From an uncultured Eubacteriales bacterium (lineage in GTDB: Bacteria > Bacillota > Clostridia > Lachnospirales > Lachnospiraceae), in assembly GCA_949292795.1 (NCBI GenBank), contig CASFBR010000104.1, positions 1 through 36,247 on the forward strand: a stretch of DNA of 36,247 nt. Direction: 5' to 3'. Below, in pieces: positions 5,144-33,619 of the stretch (position 1 is the stretch's first letter; every line of letters starts with the position of its first letter). The position numbers and the translations under genes are program-made. Under the pieces are notes generated by a model, which saw only the letters and a program-made list of their open reading frames with translations, was not told where the DNA came from and did no database searches.

Positions 5144-6031
5144 CTACTTTACTTCCACCAACTCAATTTTAAAGTTTAATTCCTTGCCCGCCATTTCGTG
5201 ATTGGCATCAAGCGTGATCGTCTTTTCCTCTTTTGCAACAACCTTCACAGGGAATGGCTGTCCATACTGATTGGAAAGATAGACCTGCTGTCCGACCTCA
5301 AGGCCTTCAGAACCCGGAAGCTGTGCAATCTCAAACGTCAGAATCGCATTGGGGTCCGGCATACCGTAAGCTTCCTCCGGCATCAGATGAACATCTACGG
5401 TCTGTCCGACTTCCATATCCGCCACAGCCGCATCAAAGCCCCGGATCATCTGTCCGGCTCCGCAGACAAATTCCAGAGGCTCTCCCCTGTCATAGGAGGA
5501 ATCAAATGGTGTTCCGTCATTAAATGTACCGATGTAGTGTGTGCGGCATGTCTTGCCTACATTCCGCCCGGTCAGCGCGGTATGCCCGCCGCAGCCGCCA
5601 CAGCCACCGGCACAGGAATGTCCGTCATCATGTCCGCCGCAGCCATGCTCCTCTCCATGTCCGCCACAGCCGTGATCGCCGCAGCTATGCGCTTCTCCGT
5701 GATGATGATCACAGTTCGCTCCGGTCGATGCAAGCTCGCCCTTCAGGTAAGCCTCCACCGCCTGATCAGCATCTCCGGAAGCGCCGGCACACAGCTGGAC
5801 GCCGGCTTCAGTCAGAGCTGCCACAGCGCCGCCTCCGATACCGCCGCAGATCAGTACATCCACGGCCTGCTCTGCCAAAAGTCCGGCAAGAGCCCCGTGA
5901 CCGGCGCCATTGGAGCCAATCACCTGGCTTGAAATCACGTTCTTATCTTCAACCTCATAAATTTTAAAATGCTCTGTTTTTCCAAAATGCTGAAAAATCG
6001 TTCCGTTATCATAAGCTACTGCAATTTTCAT
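5144..6031 (-). CDS. Fusion: NifX/NifB-type Fe-Mo cluster-binding domain, His/Cys-rich linker, FKBP (SlyD-like) prolyl isomerase
   Basis: A 295-residue protein with three parts. Residues 1-100 match the dinitrogenase iron-molybdenum cofactor domain (MKIAVAYDNG, FQHFGKTEHFKIYEV, GAGHGALAGLLAEQ, CGGIGGGAV). Residues about 105-148 are a stretch of alternating Cys, His and Gly (CDHHHGEAHSCGDHGCGGH and so on), well suited to bind Ni, Zn or Fe clusters. Residues about 150-295 are an SlyD-type FKBP domain (THYIGTFNDGTPFDSSY, GAGQMIRGFDAAVADM, EEAYG) with its insert-in-flap region. E. coli SlyD has its His-rich tail at the C-terminus; here the metal-rich segment joins the two domains. Start: the ATG at 6031 has GAGG 9 nt upstream; a longer TTG reading to 6046 overlaps that site and is unlikely. 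No nif genes are near, so a general metal or redox role is inferred. Confidence 0.85.
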   Translation of the reverse strand: MKIAVAYDNGTIFQHFGKTEHFKIYEVEDKNVISSQVIGSNGAGHGALAGLLAEQAVDVLICGGIGGGAVAALTEAGVQLCAGASGDADQAVEAYLKGELASTGANCDHHHGEAHSCGDHGCGGHGEEHGCGGHDDGHSCAGGCGGCGGHTALTGRNVGKTCRTHYIGTFNDGTPFDSSYDRGEPLEFVCGAGQMIRGFDAAVADMEVGQTVDVHLMPEEAYGMPDPNAILTFEIAQLPGSEGLEVGQQVYLSNQYGQPFPVKVVAKEEKTITLDANHEMAGKELNFKIELVEVK

Positions 6032-6073
6032 TGATCTAATCCTCAACTTTCATTTTTACTGTGAATCCGCTTA

Positions 6074-8356: not shown

Positions 8357-11300
8357 TCATGGATGAGCAATGGCTTTGGAGGGGGATGGCAAAGGTTTAG
8401 GGGAATTGCCGGAAAAATCTGTAAGCTTCCGATACAGCTTGACCGCCCCTTCTCTGCTTTTTCCGTATAGGAAGTAGTAGTCGGTCTGGTCGGTTCCGTC
8501 GGCGTACACATAGGTGCCATACATAGAAATGGCACAGCACAGGACGGTGCCCGGCGCTGCTATCCCGATGCCATAGCCCGCATCGGATACAAGCAGCGGC
8601 ATACGCATTTTCATTCCGCCAAAGCTGATATAGCGGGCTTTATGGGCCATACGCTCCAGCGTATCATTAAGAAGCCCCTTGGCATAAATTTTTTCATCAT
8701 TTCTCCAGTTAAAATAGCTCCATGCTTCCGGTGCGCCGCCCGATTTCAGATCGCGGGGATGTGCCGGGTCTTCTGCCAGCAGCAGCTTTCCCTCCGGTGT
8801 GAAAAAGGACAGCGCCCCTGTGGCTGCCGTAAACCGCACGGTTACAGCATCCGTCGCGGCCTCGACGATTGAGCGTCCGGCTCTTACACGCCACTGCGCC
8901 AGAATATCGGGCGACGCTTCCCAAAAGCTTTCTTTAAAAGGTATTTTAAAATCCTTTTTATACTGCACGCGAATAATATCCGCTGCCAGCGGCGTCAGTC
9001 TTAGCACTCCGTTTACACTGGCCACATCCAGATAATGCTTTGTCTTTTTAATCTTTTTCACAGCACTGCTGCCAGAGCCAGAGCTTTGCGCCTTCACAGC
9101 CTCTGTTCCAAAGGGTGAACGCAGCGCACCCGATGCCGGGCAATCGCCAAAGTGATACGGCGACGGGTTTATTGGGCGGTTGTCCCTGTACTTTAAAAGA
9201 GGGACTGTCAGATGTTTGCCAGGCGTGGCCTCCTCTCCGGGCTGCACGATCTGCTGCGGCGCTCCGGCCTTTGACGCCTGCCGCGGCAATTCCGACTCTG
9301 ACGCCTGCCGCCGCAATTCCGCCCCTGCCGCCTGCTGCGGCGCTCCGGGCTGCACAGGTAAATCGTCACGACTTATATTTGCGGTGTCCCCGGAAGTTTC
9401 CGGCAAAATAAGATTGGCATCCCGCTCTGCCGGGAGTGCGATCAAATCTGTAAGGTCGCCCTGGTGAACAATGGCCAGTTCGTGAAGCGCCCTGGTCACA
9501 GCCACATAAAGCTGCCGGACGCTGGCATCATCCGACGGATAGCGGTTTCTGGACGGATGATAAATAACGACACCATCAAATTCCAGCCCCTTCGTGTATG
9601 TCACAGAAAGCACCATGATCCCCTGTGTAAAACCGGCGCTCTCAGGATCGCTGTCCGCCAGCGTCATGGAAGCTCCCAGGCGCCGGCGGACCATAGCGGC
9701 TTCTTCATCATCCCCGCAAATCACCGCCAATGTCTCCCGCCCCTCCTGAAGCCACTGTCTCAGGAGCGCTTCTGTCTCCAAAAGCATCTGTGCTTCACCC
9801 AGGCATTCCCGAATACATACCGGATGTCCATGGCGGCAGACCGGCTCTGCGGGATATATGGCAAAGCTGCCGTGGCGAAGAATTTGCGCGGCAAATTCAG
9901 AAATTTCAATCGTATTGCGATAGCTTTTTTTCAGAATACAAAAGCCGCTTTTCCCATCCGGAAGGAACAGCTTTTTTAAAGGCTCCCAGTCATTAAGGCC
10001 GTAACCGCAATGGATATTTTGCGAAACATCTCCCATAATTGTATAAGTACAGTCCCTAAGACAATAAGCAAGCGCCTCATACGCCATCATCCCAAAATCC
10101 TGCGCTTCATCGATAATCATATGGCTGGTCTCCCGGATGCCATCGGTCTCCTTGATTCTCCTGTACAGATAGGCCAGCGCAGCCAGATCATAAAGGTCAA
10201 AATCATTTTTTTCATAAGTCACTGCGTTTCCTGCGGCTTCTTCATGGCAAAGAAACTGCTCGTAAAGCTCAAAAACAGAGCCCTTCCATACATTCCCTCC
10301 AAAATGGCGTCCATAGCGGCGTAAAAGCTGCTTTTGCAAAGCTTCCGGATAGGTCACATACCTTCCGCTCATTTCATTTTCCAGACGGGATAAAAGTACG
10401 GCATTAAGTCCTGAAATCTTCTCCTGCATGGACATTCCCGGATGATTCTTAATATAGCGGTCAATATCAGCAGTTTCCATCAGCAGGGCTCCGGTTTCCT
10501 CCACATAAACAGATGCCCGGGGAATCCAATTCTGTTCGCAGGTACAGCAAAATGCTTCCAGCGCATGAAACCACTGGCTGCTGCCTTTCATCCATGCTCC
10601 GGAATCTGCCGGATCAAGCGCCCGTATGCGGTACCGCTTATCATCCCAGTCCTCGTAGAGCAGCCGCACAAAAAGCTGCTCCATCGTCATCTGACGCACG
10701 CCGTATACATCCAGATCCGGCAGTGCGCTTGTAATATAGTCAAGCAGTATGCGGTTGCTCCCGATAATGTAAAAATCCTCCGGCCTGAAATCCTCTTCAT
10801 AGTTATATAAAATATAGGAAATGCGGTGCATCGCCACCGTTGTTTTCCCGGAACCGGCGACCCCCTGAACGATCAGATTGAATTTCGGTGACCGGCGGAT
10901 AATATCATTTTGCTCCTGCTGGATCGTCGCGATAATCTCGCCGAGTACAGCGGTTTTATTTCGGGCAAGATATTTTGTCAGCAGCGCATCATTGGCCACC
11001 ACATCCGAGTCAAAATAATCCTTCAGCTGATCATTTTCAATTTCATAGGTGCGCTTCAGCCGCAGCTCCACCTCATAAGTACCTTCGTTTTTTACCGTAT
11101 AGCGGCAGCGGCCCGACGTATTTTCATAATACAGAGAAGCAACCGGCGCCCGCCAGTCGATAACGATCGGTTCTGTCGGGCTTTTAAAAATACCGGCCCG
11201 GCCGATATAATAGCATTCCTCTCCAAAACGCTGCGCGTCTTTAAAATCGATCCGGCCAAAATACGGCTTTTCCCGGGCTTTTTTCCGGCGCATCAGGTCT

Positions 11301-11539
11301 CTTTTGCTCTGATCCATCTGCACCTGGATATTGCGCAGCATCGACAGGCCCTCTTTCTCCTTCGGCCCGTAGGATTCCATCAGTTCATGAAGCTGCCCGG
11401 AAAGCGTTTCCGTCTCAGCCTCTGCCTGTTTGAGGCGTTCCTTCGCCACACTGATGATCAGCTTAAGCTGTGCTTCCTCCTCAGCCCGGCTTTTCCCCGG
11501 AACCGGCCGGGGCTGTATATCTGTTATCTGTTTTTTCAT
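8357..11539 (-). CDS. helD: HelD-type UvrD-like helicase fused to a GH31 N-terminal (non-catalytic) domain
   Basis: A 1060-residue protein. Residues 1-~720 are a HelD-type superfamily-1 motor that releases stalled RNA polymerase: an N-terminal coiled coil (about 20-90), YFGRIDF, Walker A GVAGSGKTT (226-233), MIIDEAQDF, TYTKGLEFDGVVIY, and YVAVTRALHEL. Residues ~720-835 are a low-complexity Q/A/R/P/S linker with a 27-bp DNA repeat. Residues ~835-1060 resemble the N-terminal beta-sandwich of GH31 alpha-glucosidases/xylosidases: RLTPLAADIIRVQY, EASPDILAQWRV, NDEKIYAKGLL, MPLLVSDAGYGI, GTDQTDYYFLYG, and LYRKLT. The protein ends where the GH31 (beta/alpha)8 catalytic barrel would begin, so no glycosidase activity is expected. 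RBS GGAGG lies 4 nt before ATG 11539. A ~750-residue HelD would normally end near 720. One continuous frame, so this is not an assembly break. Confidence 0.85.
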   Translation of the reverse strand: MKKQITDIQPRPVPGKSRAEEEAQLKLIISVAKERLKQAEAETETLSGQLHELMESYGPKEKEGLSMLRNIQVQMDQSKRDLMRRKKAREKPYFGRIDFKDAQRFGEECYYIGRAGIFKSPTEPIVIDWRAPVASLYYENTSGRCRYTVKNEGTYEVELRLKRTYEIENDQLKDYFDSDVVANDALLTKYLARNKTAVLGEIIATIQQEQNDIIRRSPKFNLIVQGVAGSGKTTVAMHRISYILYNYEEDFRPEDFYIIGSNRILLDYITSALPDLDVYGVRQMTMEQLFVRLLYEDWDDKRYRIRALDPADSGAWMKGSSQWFHALEAFCCTCEQNWIPRASVYVEETGALLMETADIDRYIKNHPGMSMQEKISGLNAVLLSRLENEMSGRYVTYPEALQKQLLRRYGRHFGGNVWKGSVFELYEQFLCHEEAAGNAVTYEKNDFDLYDLAALAYLYRRIKETDGIRETSHMIIDEAQDFGMMAYEALAYCLRDCTYTIMGDVSQNIHCGYGLNDWEPLKKLFLPDGKSGFCILKKSYRNTIEISEFAAQILRHGSFAIYPAEPVCRHGHPVCIRECLGEAQMLLETEALLRQWLQEGRETLAVICGDDEEAAMVRRRLGASMTLADSDPESAGFTQGIMVLSVTYTKGLEFDGVVIYHPSRNRYPSDDASVRQLYVAVTRALHELAIVHQGDLTDLIALPAERDANLILPETSGDTANISRDDLPVQPGAPQQAAGAELRRQASESELPRQASKAGAPQQIVQPGEEATPGKHLTVPLLKYRDNRPINPSPYHFGDCPASGALRSPFGTEAVKAQSSGSGSSAVKKIKKTKHYLDVASVNGVLRLTPLAADIIRVQYKKDFKIPFKESFWEASPDILAQWRVRAGRSIVEAATDAVTVRFTAATGALSFFTPEGKLLLAEDPAHPRDLKSGGAPEAWSYFNWRNDEKIYAKGLLNDTLERMAHKARYISFGGMKMRMPLLVSDAGYGIGIAAPGTVLCCAISMYGTYVYADGTDQTDYYFLYGKSREGAVKLYRKLTDFSGNSPKPLPSPSKAIAHP

Positions 11540-12258: not shown

Positions 12259-12308
12259 ATATTCCGGCAGTCTGACAGCATCAAAGCATGACAATAAATG
12301 ACAGCCTG

Positions 12309-12450
12309 CATAAAATGGCCGCTTAACATATTAAAGCAAGTGACCGCTTACAGTAAATGGCTCCTTAACATATTAAAGCAAGTGACTGCTTACAGTAAAT
12401 GGCCCCTTACATATTAAGGCAAGTACCCTCTTACAGTAATGATATTTTAC
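12309..12450. repeat. Tandem repeat after oppF, ~42-bp unit, three clear copies
   Basis: AACATATTAAAGCAAGTGAC begins at 12325 and 12367, with a third diverged copy at about 12408. Degenerate copies continue on both sides; the one at 12430-12460 overlaps the last codons and stop of oppF. Confidence 0.85.
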
Positions 12451-13466
12451 AATAAGTGGCATCTTACAAAATGTCCGGGCTCGATTTCCTTTTGTTCCGG
12501 AACCTCCGTTTTGCACCGCTCCATGCAATACTGGCAGCGGGTATGGAACTTGCATCCTGACGGCGGATTTGCCGGGGACGGGATGGAGCCCTGGAGCACA
12601 ATACGGCTCATCTTGGCTTTCGGGTCCGGGATCGGGATTGCCGAAAACAGCGCTTTTGTATAAGGATGCACAGGATTTTTGAAAATATCCTCCGTCGCAC
12701 CGTATTCCACAAGATTCCCGAGATACATAACGCCGACAGTGTCTGAAATATGTTCCACAACGGAAAGATCGTGGGAAATAAACAGATAGGTCAGCTTATA
12801 TTTTTCCTGGAGGTCTTTTAACAGGTTAATGATCTGCGCCTGAATCGACACATCCAGTGCGGACACAGGCTCGTCGCAGACAACGAACTCCGGATTCAGT
12901 GCCAGTGCTCTGGCAATGCAGATACGCTGGCGCTGACCGCCGGAAAATTCGTGGGGATAGCGGTCTTTGTGGAACGGCTGGAGACCACAGTTGTCCATCA
13001 CCTGATCGATATAATCATTAAACTCAGCCTTTGGCACAAGGTGATGCTCCCGAACAGCCTCGCCGATGATCTCGCCAACCGGCAGACGGGGAGAAAGGCT
13101 GGAAAACGGGTCCTGGAAAATGATCTGCATTTTTGTACGCAGATCGCGAAGCTTATCCTTCGGGATGTCATACACTTCCTGACCGTTAAAAAGTACCTGG
13201 CCGCCGGTTTTTTCTCCGGAAAGACGCAGAATCGTCCGTCCGGTCGTTGTCTTTCCGCAGCCGGATTCACCGACAAGTCCCATCGTTGTTCCCCGCTTCA
13301 GATTGAAGGTTACGCCGTCCACGGCCTTAACCTGGCCAACCACACGGGATACCATCCCGCCCTTGATCGGGAAATATTTTTTTAAGTCATTGACCATTAA
13401 AATATATTGGGGGTCATAGGTTACCGGTGTAAAATCCGCATCGTTCATTTCTTTTGTATGAGCCAT
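12447..13466 (-). CDS. oppF: Oligopeptide/dipeptide ABC transporter ATP-binding protein (OppF type)
   Basis: A 339-residue ATPase of the peptide/nickel importer group. Seen: Walker [14 protein letters not shown]-loop region IFQDPFSSLSPR, signature FSGGQRQR, Walker B FVVCDEPVSALD, H-loop LFISHDLSVV, then the C-terminal oligopeptide-transporter extension with the Cys cluster CKFHTRCQYCMERC that in this group can hold an iron-sulfur cluster. Its ATG overlaps the oppD stop (TGATG), so the two halves of the ATPase heterodimer are coupled. It pairs with OppD to drive OppB/OppC. Confidence 0.93.
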   Translation of the reverse strand: MAHTKEMNDADFTPVTYDPQYILMVNDLKKYFPIKGGMVSRVVGQVKAVDGVTFNLKRGTTMGLVGESGCGKTTTGRTILRLSGEKTGGQVLFNGQEVYDIPKDKLRDLRTKMQIIFQDPFSSLSPRLPVGEIIGEAVREHHLVPKAEFNDYIDQVMDNCGLQPFHKDRYPHEFSGGQRQRICIARALALNPEFVVCDEPVSALDVSIQAQIINLLKDLQEKYKLTYLFISHDLSVVEHISDTVGVMYLGNLVEYGATEDIFKNPVHPYTKALFSAIPIPDPKAKMSRIVLQGSIPSPANPPSGCKFHTRCQYCMERCKTEVPEQKEIEPGHFVRCHLL

Positions 13467-30390: not shown

Positions 30391-30788
30391 TCAATCACCT
30401 CCCCGGTGTGCACCTTGACAATACTCCGTATCACACAAAAACCGCCGTTTTCCGGCAACGATACCGTACAGCAGTCCGGGCTGTCCGATGCCGTTCCCCG
30501 TACGGCATCGGATATAGCCGCCGTTTCCGGTGCAGCGGCTGCTTTTCTGGCCATTTTAACAACAGACATTCTGCGGCGCACACGGCCGCCCTTTTCTTGC
30601 TGAGCAGACATCCGTGCAATAGCCGCTCTCGCTGTATGTCCGCTCAGCTCCAAAAATACTTTTGGAATTTTCAGCCATATAAATAAAACAACCGCAGCGG
30701 CCGCAAATAAAATCGCGCCGACACCGCAGTATAGAAAAATACAATGGTACAGCCCTGCAAGATGTTCAAAATTTTGCGTTCGCATCAT
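30387..30788 (-). CDS. Hypothetical single-pass membrane protein (kinase operon)
   Basis: 133 residues, not recognised. One strong helix at residues about 15-40 (CIFLYCGVGAILFAAAAVVLFIWL), then a basic, Ala-rich cytoplasmic-type region (KGGRVRRRMSVVKMARKAAAAPE) and a short C-terminal Cys-containing segment (SPDCCTVSLPENGGFCVIRSIV). ATG at 30788 overlaps the kinase stop by ATGA and its own stop overlaps the giant gene start by ATGA, so all are translationally coupled. A small adaptor between kinase and surface protein is an inference from position only. Confidence 0.68.
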   Translation of the reverse strand: MMRTQNFEHLAGLYHCIFLYCGVGAILFAAAAVVLFIWLKIPKVFLELSGHTARAAIARMSAQQEKGGRVRRRMSVVKMARKAAAAPETAAISDAVRGTASDSPDCCTVSLPENGGFCVIRSIVKVHTGEVIE

Positions 30789-32611
30789 ATCCCATCTCCT
30801 TCCCCTTGTGTCTCCCCGTCTGTGGAAAAAACAGCCTCTATATTTTTTCGTGCCAGGCGGATATTACTCTGAAGCGCTTCAACAAGCTGTTTTTCATAAT
30901 TTTTTGACGTTCCCGATCCCGAACTGTTTTGATTCTCACTCGCAGGGAGCCTGTCCATGCAGCGCTCAACCTCAGCCAAAGCCTGCTCCATCGCGTCCCG
31001 TGTGAGCCCGGCCTCATTTTTAAATTCCACGGCTCTTGTGCATATCTGTCCGACAATCTCGTTATATAAACGCAGCTCCGTCATCGTATTGTCCTTACCG
31101 GCCACATCCCCGTCCAAAAGTGCCATAAGGTCATTCCAGTAATCCCGGTAAGAAACTTCAGCGTCTCCGGCTCTGTTTGTAACGCCAAGCTTGCTTTTAT
31201 AATAGCTGCCGATACGCCCCAAGACCCGGGCCCGTGCCTGCCAGGCCTCTTTGTACGGCTCGTCCGCACCCAGGTCAAGCGCGTCCATATCCGCCTCTGC
31301 CACCGGTTCAAACCAGCCCGCCGCAACAGACTTATCACCGCTGCCATCAGCGGCATCATAGTAATAGGTCGTCCCCATCTTATACGCAAACTTCACATAT
31401 CCGCTTTTGTTTGTCTGAAGATATGCCTGGTTATCCATCGCACGTCCGTAAGCTTTGGAATGAAGCACCGATGTGACCGTACGCTCATCCTCCGCCGAGA
31501 AATCACCATCCGCAGTCATCACATCCAGCATCTGCAAATATGCTTCTTCCCGCACCGGGTCTAAAGCAACCGCCTTCTTATAAAAATCCATCTGCGCTTT
31601 ACCGCCTGCGGTTTTTGCCCGCTCTAAATAATAGTCATAGCCGCTGTTGGCTGTATGCCGTTCCATCCCCATGCCAAATAACGAAGCGCCGCCAAAAACC
31701 AGCGCCATACATACACAGCCCAAAAAGGCATAAAGTGCCCTGGACAGCTTTCTTCTGTAAGGAAGCCCCAGCGTCTGCGGATGCTCCAGATCATATTTCA
31801 GTTCGGCACAGGATGCATAACGCTCTTCCATCCCATATCGGGTGCACCTTTCAATAATCATCTCCAGACCGAGCAACGCCCCTCTCAGCCTCGCAGGTGT
31901 CTCCTCCAAAAGCGACGGCCGACAGCAGGTAATCCTTGGAAAATAAAAAGGCGTTGCCTGCGGGTCTCTGCCGGTGATCAGATGATGAAGCGTTGCCCCG
32001 AAATTATAAATATCGGTCTGCGGCCGGCTCTGTCCGCCTCCATACTGTTCCGGAGCCGCATATCCTGGCGTGCCAAGGCAGGTCGTATCCTCCGGCTTTC
32101 CCTGCTTAAATACCCGGGCTATGCCAAAATCCACAACACAAATATCTCCATCCGGTTTAAGCATCACATTGCCCGGCTTTAAATCTCTGTAAATCACCGG
32201 CTGGGGCCGGGTATGCAGATAATACAGGACATCGCAGATCTGACGCCCCCATGAAAGCACCTCCTCCACACCGGGAGGGATGCCTTCTTCCTCAAGCCGT
32301 TCGTTTAAAACGGTATACAGCGATTTTCCCTGTATGTAATCCATAACGATCAGCAGTGTATCACCGGTATCGATCACATCTACGATCGCCGGCAGGTATT
32401 TATGATTCAGGCCTTTTAAAATATGAATCTCCGTCATGATCCCCTGACACACCATATCAAAGTCCTGTACACCATCCTTTCGGACTTCTTTTATCGCCCA
32501 CATTTTATTCGCCCGCTCATTGATTGCCAGATATACAACGCTCATGCCGCCCTGTCCGATCTTTTCAAGTACCTTATACGTTCCGCCCACAAAAGAACCG
32601 ATCTTAATCAA
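30785..32611 (-). CDS. Transmembrane Ser/Thr protein kinase with a TPR-like extracellular domain
   Basis: 608 residues from a TTG start. Kinase domain (about 10-270): Gly loop GQGGMSVVY, AIKEV (catalytic Lys41), YRDLKPGN (catalytic Asp143, Tyr in place of the usual His), VDFG (Asp161), GTPGYAAPEQY. A helix at about 291-315 then leads to an outside domain with a TPR-like start (YYLERAKTAGGKAQMDFYKKAVALDP) and helical repeats to the C-terminus; no PASTA modules. Start choice: AGGGAGG lies 7 nt before TTG 32611, and that TTG overlaps the phosphatase stop as TTGA; the ATG at 32629 has no SD. Pairs with the PP2C gene just upstream. Confidence 0.9.
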   Translation of the reverse strand: MIKIGSFVGGTYKVLEKIGQGGMSVVYLAINERANKMWAIKEVRKDGVQDFDMVCQGIMTEIHILKGLNHKYLPAIVDVIDTGDTLLIVMDYIQGKSLYTVLNERLEEEGIPPGVEEVLSWGRQICDVLYYLHTRPQPVIYRDLKPGNVMLKPDGDICVVDFGIARVFKQGKPEDTTCLGTPGYAAPEQYGGGQSRPQTDIYNFGATLHHLITGRDPQATPFYFPRITCCRPSLLEETPARLRGALLGLEMIIERCTRYGMEERYASCAELKYDLEHPQTLGLPYRRKLSRALYAFLGCVCMALVFGGASLFGMGMERHTANSGYDYYLERAKTAGGKAQMDFYKKAVALDPVREEAYLQMLDVMTADGDFSAEDERTVTSVLHSKAYGRAMDNQAYLQTNKSGYVKFAYKMGTTYYYDAADGSGDKSVAAGWFEPVAEADMDALDLGADEPYKEAWQARARVLGRIGSYYKSKLGVTNRAGDAEVSYRDYWNDLMALLDGDVAGKDNTMTELRLYNEIVGQICTRAVEFKNEAGLTRDAMEQALAEVERCMDRLPASENQNSSGSGTSKNYEKQLVEALQSNIRLARKNIEAVFSTDGETQGEGDGI

Positions 32612-33390
32612 TGCTGCGCCTCCCTGCATGTGCGTATCAACGCTGCGGAAATATTATCTGTCTCCCGGCGCTGCTTATTCATCCGGATCAATGTCTGTAA
32701 CCCGTCTGTCATATCCGTTTCACAGACGGCCGCCCCGGGATTAAGATAATCATAAAACTCTTCCGGCGACACCCGGTGGCGAAATCCGTCAGTGCACACG
32801 AGAAACATCTGATCCGGCAGCACCCCGCCCTGATAAAAATCCGGAACGACCGTATCTGAGGCCCCGACACACTGAAGCAGCACATGACGCCGTGGATGGC
32901 TGATTGCTTCCTCCAAAGTCATACTCCCCTGATCCAGCGCATACTGAACCCACGTCTGATCTTTTGTCAGCTGATGGAGCGCCCGATCCAGCATATATGC
33001 CCGCGTATCCCCCACATTCATCAAAAAATACTGTCCCTGTATGATCAGCAGCGCGGTCACCGTTGTCCCCATCAAAGCGCCCTGATGCCGTGCATAGGCG
33101 CCCATGCGCTGATTTTCATCCAAAATCATCTGCATCCAGACAGACTTTAACAGCTGCACATCAAAATTTCCTTTAAGCATTTCCGGGAAATCCCGTTCAA
33201 ACCAGCGCTCAAAGGCCCGGATAAGCGTCCCACTGGCCAGCTCCCCCTTAGAAAGCCCGCCCATGCCATCACAGACAACACACAGACAGAGCCGCCCCAA
33301 AGCCGACAGTGCCACCTTCACAAGCAACGCATCCTGATTGATTTTTTTAAGGATACCGGCATCACTGTGAGCAGCAATCAAATAATCCAT
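32608..33390 (-). CDS. PP2C-family Ser/Thr phosphatase
   Basis: 260 residues, normal for a stand-alone bacterial PPM phosphatase. Metal-binding motifs are all visible: NQDA near the start, VCDGMGG, NVGDTRAYM, VCTDGF, and RETDNIS near the end. It removes phosphate from proteins phosphorylated by the partner kinase. Start 33390 is preferred for GGGAG 8 nt upstream and because the PP2C domain begins right after it; two longer ATGs at 33432 and 33405 have no SD. First gene of the four-gene operon; its stop overlaps the kinase start. Confidence 0.92.
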   Translation of the reverse strand: MDYLIAAHSDAGILKKINQDALLVKVALSALGRLCLCVVCDGMGGLSKGELASGTLIRAFERWFERDFPEMLKGNFDVQLLKSVWMQMILDENQRMGAYARHQGALMGTTVTALLIIQGQYFLMNVGDTRAYMLDRALHQLTKDQTWVQYALDQGSMTLEEAISHPRRHVLLQCVGASDTVVPDFYQGGVLPDQMFLVCTDGFRHRVSPEEFYDYLNPGAAVCETDMTDGLQTLIRMNKQRRETDNISAALIRTCREAQH

Positions 33391-33619
33391 AGCAACATCT
33401 CCCATCACCAAACGGACAGCATACCGCGTCATACAAAGTCGGAAAAATTATCGGGAATCCGGCTTCGGTATACAGGGGCAATACATTTTCAGGCATGCTG
33501 CCCTTTATGCACCGACATAATCATTTACTAAAATGGCTGATACAAGATAAACTCAGAAATCCTGATGGATCAAACGAACACATATAGAATTGGTTTAAAG
33601 AAACTTTCAGATTAATAAC

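Follow-up and report, generated by a model that had tools for sequence, protein, structure and literature searches.

A HelD-type motor of Lachnospiraceae fused to the N-terminal beta-sandwich of a GH31 glycosidase, a possible binding arm at RNA polymerase

The transcription factor HelD has come to be understood only recently. Here we describe an unusual form of it, encoded in a 36,247-nucleotide stretch of DNA (the window) from an uncultured Eubacteriales bacterium of the Lachnospiraceae (contig CASFBR010000104.1 of assembly GCA_949292795.1). One gene in the window encodes a HelD motor followed by a flexible linker and a GH31 glycosidase N-terminal beta-sandwich, and the whole is a single open frame holding both parts, just as a preliminary description made from the sequence alone had it (Table 1). 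The fused proteins are best explained as a subclass of class I HelD that is specific to a lineage within the Lachnospiraceae. We tentatively favor the reading that the GH31 domain was exapted and now serves as a binding arm without catalysis, whose likeliest partner is nucleic acid close to RNA polymerase.

Judged by homology over the motor and by its SF1 motifs, the window motor is a class I HelD. The NCBIfam model HelD_BACSU matches it with an E value of 3.6e-95 (319.5 bits), and the class I HelD of Bacillus subtilis (PDB 6wvk, chain H) with an E value of 4.1e-65. All of the motor motifs that we looked for are common to both proteins (Walker A, DEAQDFG, SYRNT, TKGLEFD, and TRALHEL). The window protein falls below the equivalog cut-off of HelD_BACSU (419 bits), a model that we read as tuned to Bacillus-type sequences, and class II HelD models score below HelD_BACSU on it. 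The alignment also shows a region of ~90 residues upstream of a conserved KPYFGRIDF block, a candidate for the N-terminal coiled-coil arm with which class I HelD enters the secondary channel. The core of the motor has a median net charge of -20 and is thus acidic. The preliminary description had placed HelD in residues ~1-720; the motifs are indeed there, but the motor ends near residue 704. In contrast to the B. subtilis class I HelD, which lacks a GH31 N-domain, the window protein runs on for ~355 residues beyond the motor.

Profile searches and a structural model identify residues 832-1039 as a GH31 N-terminal beta-sandwich that has no catalytic barrel behind it, and the protein itself is not a glycosidase. 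The preliminary description had recognized this domain in residues ~835-1060, and its identity stands, although the domain ends at ~1039 rather than 1060. A profile search with the window sequence alone, as proposed there, was marginal: PF13802 (Gal_mutarotas_2) matched at an E value of 0.034 and 14.9 bits, short of its gathering score of 27 bits, and BoGH31A matched weakly (E value, 0.029). The identification became unambiguous once relatives were added. PF13802 matches 57 of 77 related domains at E values of up to 0.1 (best, 7.7e-6); this set (A1) was drawn from 79, with the near-duplicates L024 and L088 omitted. A profile of the same 77 domains retrieved nine matches from the PDB, all of them GH31 enzymes (best, 7kmp; E value, 6.6e-12). 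An hhalign comparison of the fused domains with 13 GH31 rows, two of which (L014 and L130) represent one locus, gave a probability of 99.9 and an E value of 1.3e-35. In addition, when the window domain was searched against 145 related genomes, it matched frames of ~800 amino acids, with E values down to 1.7e-12, which are GH31-like enzymes by sequence.

Structure prediction, also proposed at the outset, agrees. The AlphaFold2 model of the domain (pLDDT, 88.7; pTM, 0.87) is all-beta with one C-terminal helix. The best 50 of 66 Foldseek matches in the PDB (E values of up to 0.001) are GH31 alpha-glycosidases by title wherever the title names the family; the matches whose titles omit it we assigned to GH31 ourselves. 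The best match is the alpha-xylosidase 5zn6 (E value, 1.7e-11; TMq, 0.69). The domain thus has its fold in common with the N-domains of GH31 alpha-xylosidases and alpha-glucosidases (MeXyl31, 5zn6; BoGH31A, 5jou; Xac1773, 7kmp), together with core residues such as R857, E923, E949, G955, Y970, P981, S985, Y989, and D1020. However, the GH31 catalytic (beta/alpha)8 barrel is absent. The stretch aligned by hhalign stops just short of the barrel-entry segment of the enzymes, and the frame ends before that segment with no further protein after it, which bears out the earlier remark that the protein stops where the barrel would begin.

The same fusion occurs in many other Lachnospiraceae. Among 80 loci, chosen by similarity from 280 relatives found, 78 encode the fused protein in one full-length frame, and the other two are cut by contig ends. 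The gene is present on a complete chromosome (CP102274.1, Hungatella hathewayi), and its carriers include the isolates Catenibacillus scindens (placed in Lachnospiraceae by NCBI), Kineothrix alysoides, Roseburia porci, and Oliverpabstia intestinalis. On the strength of the single-frame loci and the complete chromosome, we reject a chimeric assembly or a frameshift fusion. The 80-locus set favors fused forms, because two of the six search peptides lay within the domain and relatives were picked by similarity. A less biased sample comes from 299 genomes of the window's family, searched with the motor alone and with a domain profile. A HelD core was found in 98 of these (E values of up to 1e-20) and a fused-type domain in 24, of which 21 have single frames above 1000 amino acids. 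Two more (G051 and G009) are cut by contig ends, and in G206 (locus G206:C1, L142/L181) the motor and domain lie in two frames of 750 and 323 amino acids, with the switch within the linker, which may reflect mutation, sequencing error, or frameshifting. The other domain-profile matches in the 299 genomes are enzyme-size frames or fragments, for which six GH31-type loci were read and the rest judged by frame length.

Beyond the family, overlapping samples were taken at each higher rank. Frames longer than 1000 amino acids that match the domain occur in 11 of 392 genomes of the order, all Lachnospiraceae, and in the class (391 genomes) and phylum (348 genomes; E values of up to 1e-20) only in the window's own genome. 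Within the genomes sampled, the fused architecture was found only in Lachnospiraceae. Several genomes have a fused and a short HelD together (e.g., G159, G031, G310, and G175), and the window's genome shows the fused one only.

The phylogenetic trees support a single origin of the fusion. In a motor-only FastTree, 92 fused rows and the two-frame row group apart from 31 unfused rows with support of 0.996; the unfused rows are those fetched, not every one found by the motor-only search, and the fused rows include near relatives and possibly the same genome entered twice under different names. Four unfused rows are sister to the fused group, and unfused Lachnospiraceae HelDs (e.g., L146, L148, L149, and L162) are its closest motor relatives on the tree. 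In all 31 unfused rows the frame stops with the motor, 0 to 12 residues past position 704. A 58-row IQ-TREE, for which we chose 27 fused rows, is explained by a single change between the unfused and fused states (SH-aLRT, 98); the program flagged one long unfused branch, L163. In the domain tree, 100 fused rows are separate from 19 GH31 rows.

Across 79 proteins, motor and domain identities are closely correlated (Mantel r, 0.88; reached by 0 of 999 permutations), and motor and domain are inherited as a unit. Median dN/dS values are 0.121 (motor, 69 pairs), 0.328 (linker, 55 pairs), and 0.157 (domain, 67 pairs), and median pairwise identities are 0.67, 0.19, and 0.48, respectively. By these medians, the domain is kept by purifying selection, slightly less tightly than the motor. 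Two pairs have a domain dN/dS above 1; their dS is very low and falls beyond the limits that we set on dS when computing the medians. The preliminary description had offered a frozen fusion, left after the loss of a neighboring GH31 gene, as one explanation. This does not agree with the 21 intact genes in the family sample, the joint inheritance of motor and domain, or the constraint on the domain. Moreover, among the 759 open reading frames (ORFs) available from the neighborhoods of the 79 aligned loci, none other than the fused genes has a GH31 N-domain (E values of up to 1e-3), and no second copy of the domain was found in the window's own genome at E values of up to 10.

How has the domain changed since it left an enzyme? 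Unlike the N-domains of MeXyl31, BoGH31A, and Xac1773, it has lost its N-loop residues and reversed its charge, as well as lacking a barrel. Of the 19 distinct GH31 rows that we used for the loop and charge counts, 16 to 19 retain each of six residues around the N-loop (Q956, E958, G960, R965, Q973, and N975, numbered by alignment position). Among 100 fused domains, none of the six is kept in 89, one in 10, and two in 1. We infer that the altered region, residues 947-979, corresponds to the GH31 N-loop, which, according to passages of PMC4742823, forms part of the active-site pocket, with Asp303 of glucosidase II touching the +1 sugar. The fused domains have new conserved residues (P928-R929, W940, A968, S972, G974, R979, and C1002), with fused-specific lysines or arginines at positions 886, 929, 947, 950, 954, 967, 969, 976, and 979. 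The net charge is +7 (0 to +13) in the 100 fused domains versus -9 (-19 to 0) in the 19 GH31 rows. For comparison, +6 per 208 amino acids is reached by 47 of 563 (8.3%) mechanically called flanking ORFs of 200 amino acids or more. Eight basal rows have lost the loop, one of them (L205) still reading LYGLG at the loop start. We read the order of change as loss of the loop first and gain of basic residues later, because the basal rows lack both the loop and most of the basic residues.

It is on this pattern that we base the proposed binding arm. Since its motifs are intact, we take the motor to free and recycle stalled RNA polymerase as in Bacillus. According to passages of PMC7749167, the channel arm of B. 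subtilis HelD displaces nucleic acid, its clamp arm opens the clamp, and a positive patch could meet downstream DNA or the acidic tail of the polymerase subunit delta. In the fused proteins, the tethered basic sandwich would grip a polyphosphate partner. The likeliest is DNA or RNA at the polymerase, and with this hold the sandwich might keep HelD on stalled complexes or catch the displaced strand. No delta was found in any of 100 Lachnospiraceae genomes by a search in which B. subtilis and L. lactis, among 14 controls, score; this agrees with what PMC8655204 says of the family in the passages that bear on it. Bacillus HelD acts together with delta; in a family where no delta was found, an added nucleic-acid grip could be useful. 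Delta possibly performs the same service, aiding HelD at the polymerase, but it has a different fold and an acidic disordered tail (as passages of PMC7749165 describe it), whereas the fused domain is basic. In a fuller and still more tentative version of the proposal, one bacterial family that lacks delta would have exapted a sugar-enzyme sandwich as an arm with which HelD binds nucleic acid or the polymerase. The sugar-facing loop would have been taken apart first, the basal members being already without it, and later remade into a conserved basic surface. The preliminary description had suggested a recruited binding sandwich. Recruitment is supported by the single origin, the purifying selection, the loop loss, and the new conserved residues; binding is the part that we propose.

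Several observations weigh against a nucleic-acid grip. The charge contrast between fused domains and GH31 enzymes is essentially one tree branch, so that a P value for it carries little weight, and three fused domains have a net charge of 0. Lysine or arginine at positions 950, 954, 967, 976, and 979 is present in 0 to 25% of the eight basal rows, versus 78 to 97% of the other 92, and the window itself is without the lysines at 947 and 976. Basicity thus cannot account for the initial retention of the fusion. The window's linker has a net charge of -3, compared with a median of +5 in relatives. Finally, the unfused HelDs of the family also live without delta, so replacement of delta is weak as the sole cause.

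The foremost alternative, which we consider rather unlikely though credible, is a protein-protein module: the sandwich would dock on RNA polymerase or fold back onto the acidic motor, where it would tether the protein or regulate its ATPase, and nucleic acid would play no part. Such docking fits nearly as well as a nucleic-acid grip. The pairing of a basic domain with an acidic motor core speaks for it, the new invariant non-basic residues (W940, A968, S972, G974, and C1002) suggest a specific surface, and a conserved linker motif precedes the domain. The basal members, too, keep the domain though short of much of the basic set. However, the linker varies from 62 to 180 amino acids between fixed points across relatives, which argues against rigid docking on the motor.

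Sugar sensing fits least of these, and we regard it as improbable. Here the old fold would still bind a sugar or sugar-phosphate and couple the sugar supply to polymerase recycling, in keeping with the GH31 ancestry and with the many hosts of the gene that are gut bacteria by record titles. Yet the sugar-holding catalytic barrel is absent and the N-loop residues are lost, and in enzymes that loop is only one wall of the pocket (passages of PMC4742823). An oligomerization module, pairing HelD or RNA polymerase-HelD complexes, for example in a storage dimer, is a little more improbable again. A sheet of the N-domain takes part in hexamer formation of one GH31 enzyme (passages of PMC9061262), and RNA polymerase-delta-HelD dimers exist in Bacillus, but those dimers form without such a domain and with HelD outside the interface (passages of PMC7749165). 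A relic, pseudogene, or assembly artifact is very hard to credit, since what speaks for it is the two-frame gene of G206, against 78 single-frame loci whose only exceptions are cut by contig ends, the complete chromosome, and the low domain dN/dS.

The nucleic-acid grip remains the reading that we favor, and the architecture itself would extend what is recognized for HelD. Passages of PMC8655204 sort HelD into three classes, with large and small variants by arm length; they make no mention of an extra C-terminal or folded domain, and the words C-terminal, extension, and fusion have 0 occurrences in the main text of that paper. No report of a HelD with a GH31 N-domain was found among the matches listed for open-licence PMC papers, a search in which "HelD" also matches "held." A conserved further architecture in a gut-bacterial family shows that HelD has acquired more than its channel arms and that transcription can put half a glycosidase to new use. 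The basal members, with the sugar loop lost but the basic residues not yet gained, make the route of exaptation testable, and because the domain is small, its partner is open to simple biochemistry.

Table 1. Parts of the fused HelD gene and their positions in the window
Feature	Position	Strand	Remarks
Whole gene: HelD motor, linker, and GH31 N-domain	8357..11539	(-)	1060 aa, single open frame
HelD motor, residues 1-704	9428..11539	(-)	SF1 motifs intact
Walker A of HelD motor	10838-10864	(-)	
DEAQDFG motif of HelD motor	10091-10111	(-)	
Linker, residues 705-831	9047..9427	(-)	Evolves fast; length varies
27-bp tandem repeat within linker	9251..9341	(-)	3.4 copies
Short conserved linker motif NPSPYxFGxxPxxxxL, residues 791-806	9122..9169	(-)	
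GH31 N-terminal beta-sandwich domain, residues ~832-1039	8423..9046	(-)	
GH31 N-loop position (putative), residues 947-979	8603..8701	(-)	Enzyme residues gone; conserved basic residues in most relatives
C-terminal tail, residues 1040-1060	8360..8422	(-)	Model confidence low; nearly all relatives without it

The linker contains the repeat that the preliminary description had pointed out. Its motif ahead of the domain is conserved despite the fast evolution of the surrounding linker. In most relatives the motif reads NxSPYxFGxxPDxxxLRPxGHSRID; the window keeps the first part and, like its three near relatives L021, L022, and L054, lacks the GHSRID part. The C-terminal tail has an alignment occupancy of 0.07 among relatives.

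No conserved operon partner was seen, with no gene family in more than 28 of 79 neighborhoods. The most-shared neighbor clusters are one in 28 of 79 loci, which we take to be a sensor kinase, and ABC-transporter ATPases in 21 of 79, at varied distances. A consensus scan upstream for the rifampicin-alarm dual promoter gave 2 promoter-like sites versus 1.8 expected. One further HelD with an added domain appeared, in one genome only: L161 (G035:C53:5000-9500), a minus-strand frame of 1032 amino acids, is a distant HelD (28.7% identity) with an extra N-terminal domain, presumably of the ketopantoate-reductase type, and may be two genes run together.

Elsewhere in the window, imperfect direct repeats of ~65 bp are visible by eye at 12300-12460 (-), past an ABC-transporter gene. 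A 300-amino-acid protein at 5144-6046 (-) shows an odd pairing of a Nitro_FeMo-Co domain (residues 13-102) with an FKBP_C isomerase domain (residues 163-240). The segment 25363-33432 (-) encodes a 1675-amino-acid protein with bacterial Ig-like domains, whose neighbors are a Ser/Thr kinase (30785-32629) and a PP2C phosphatase (32608-33432).

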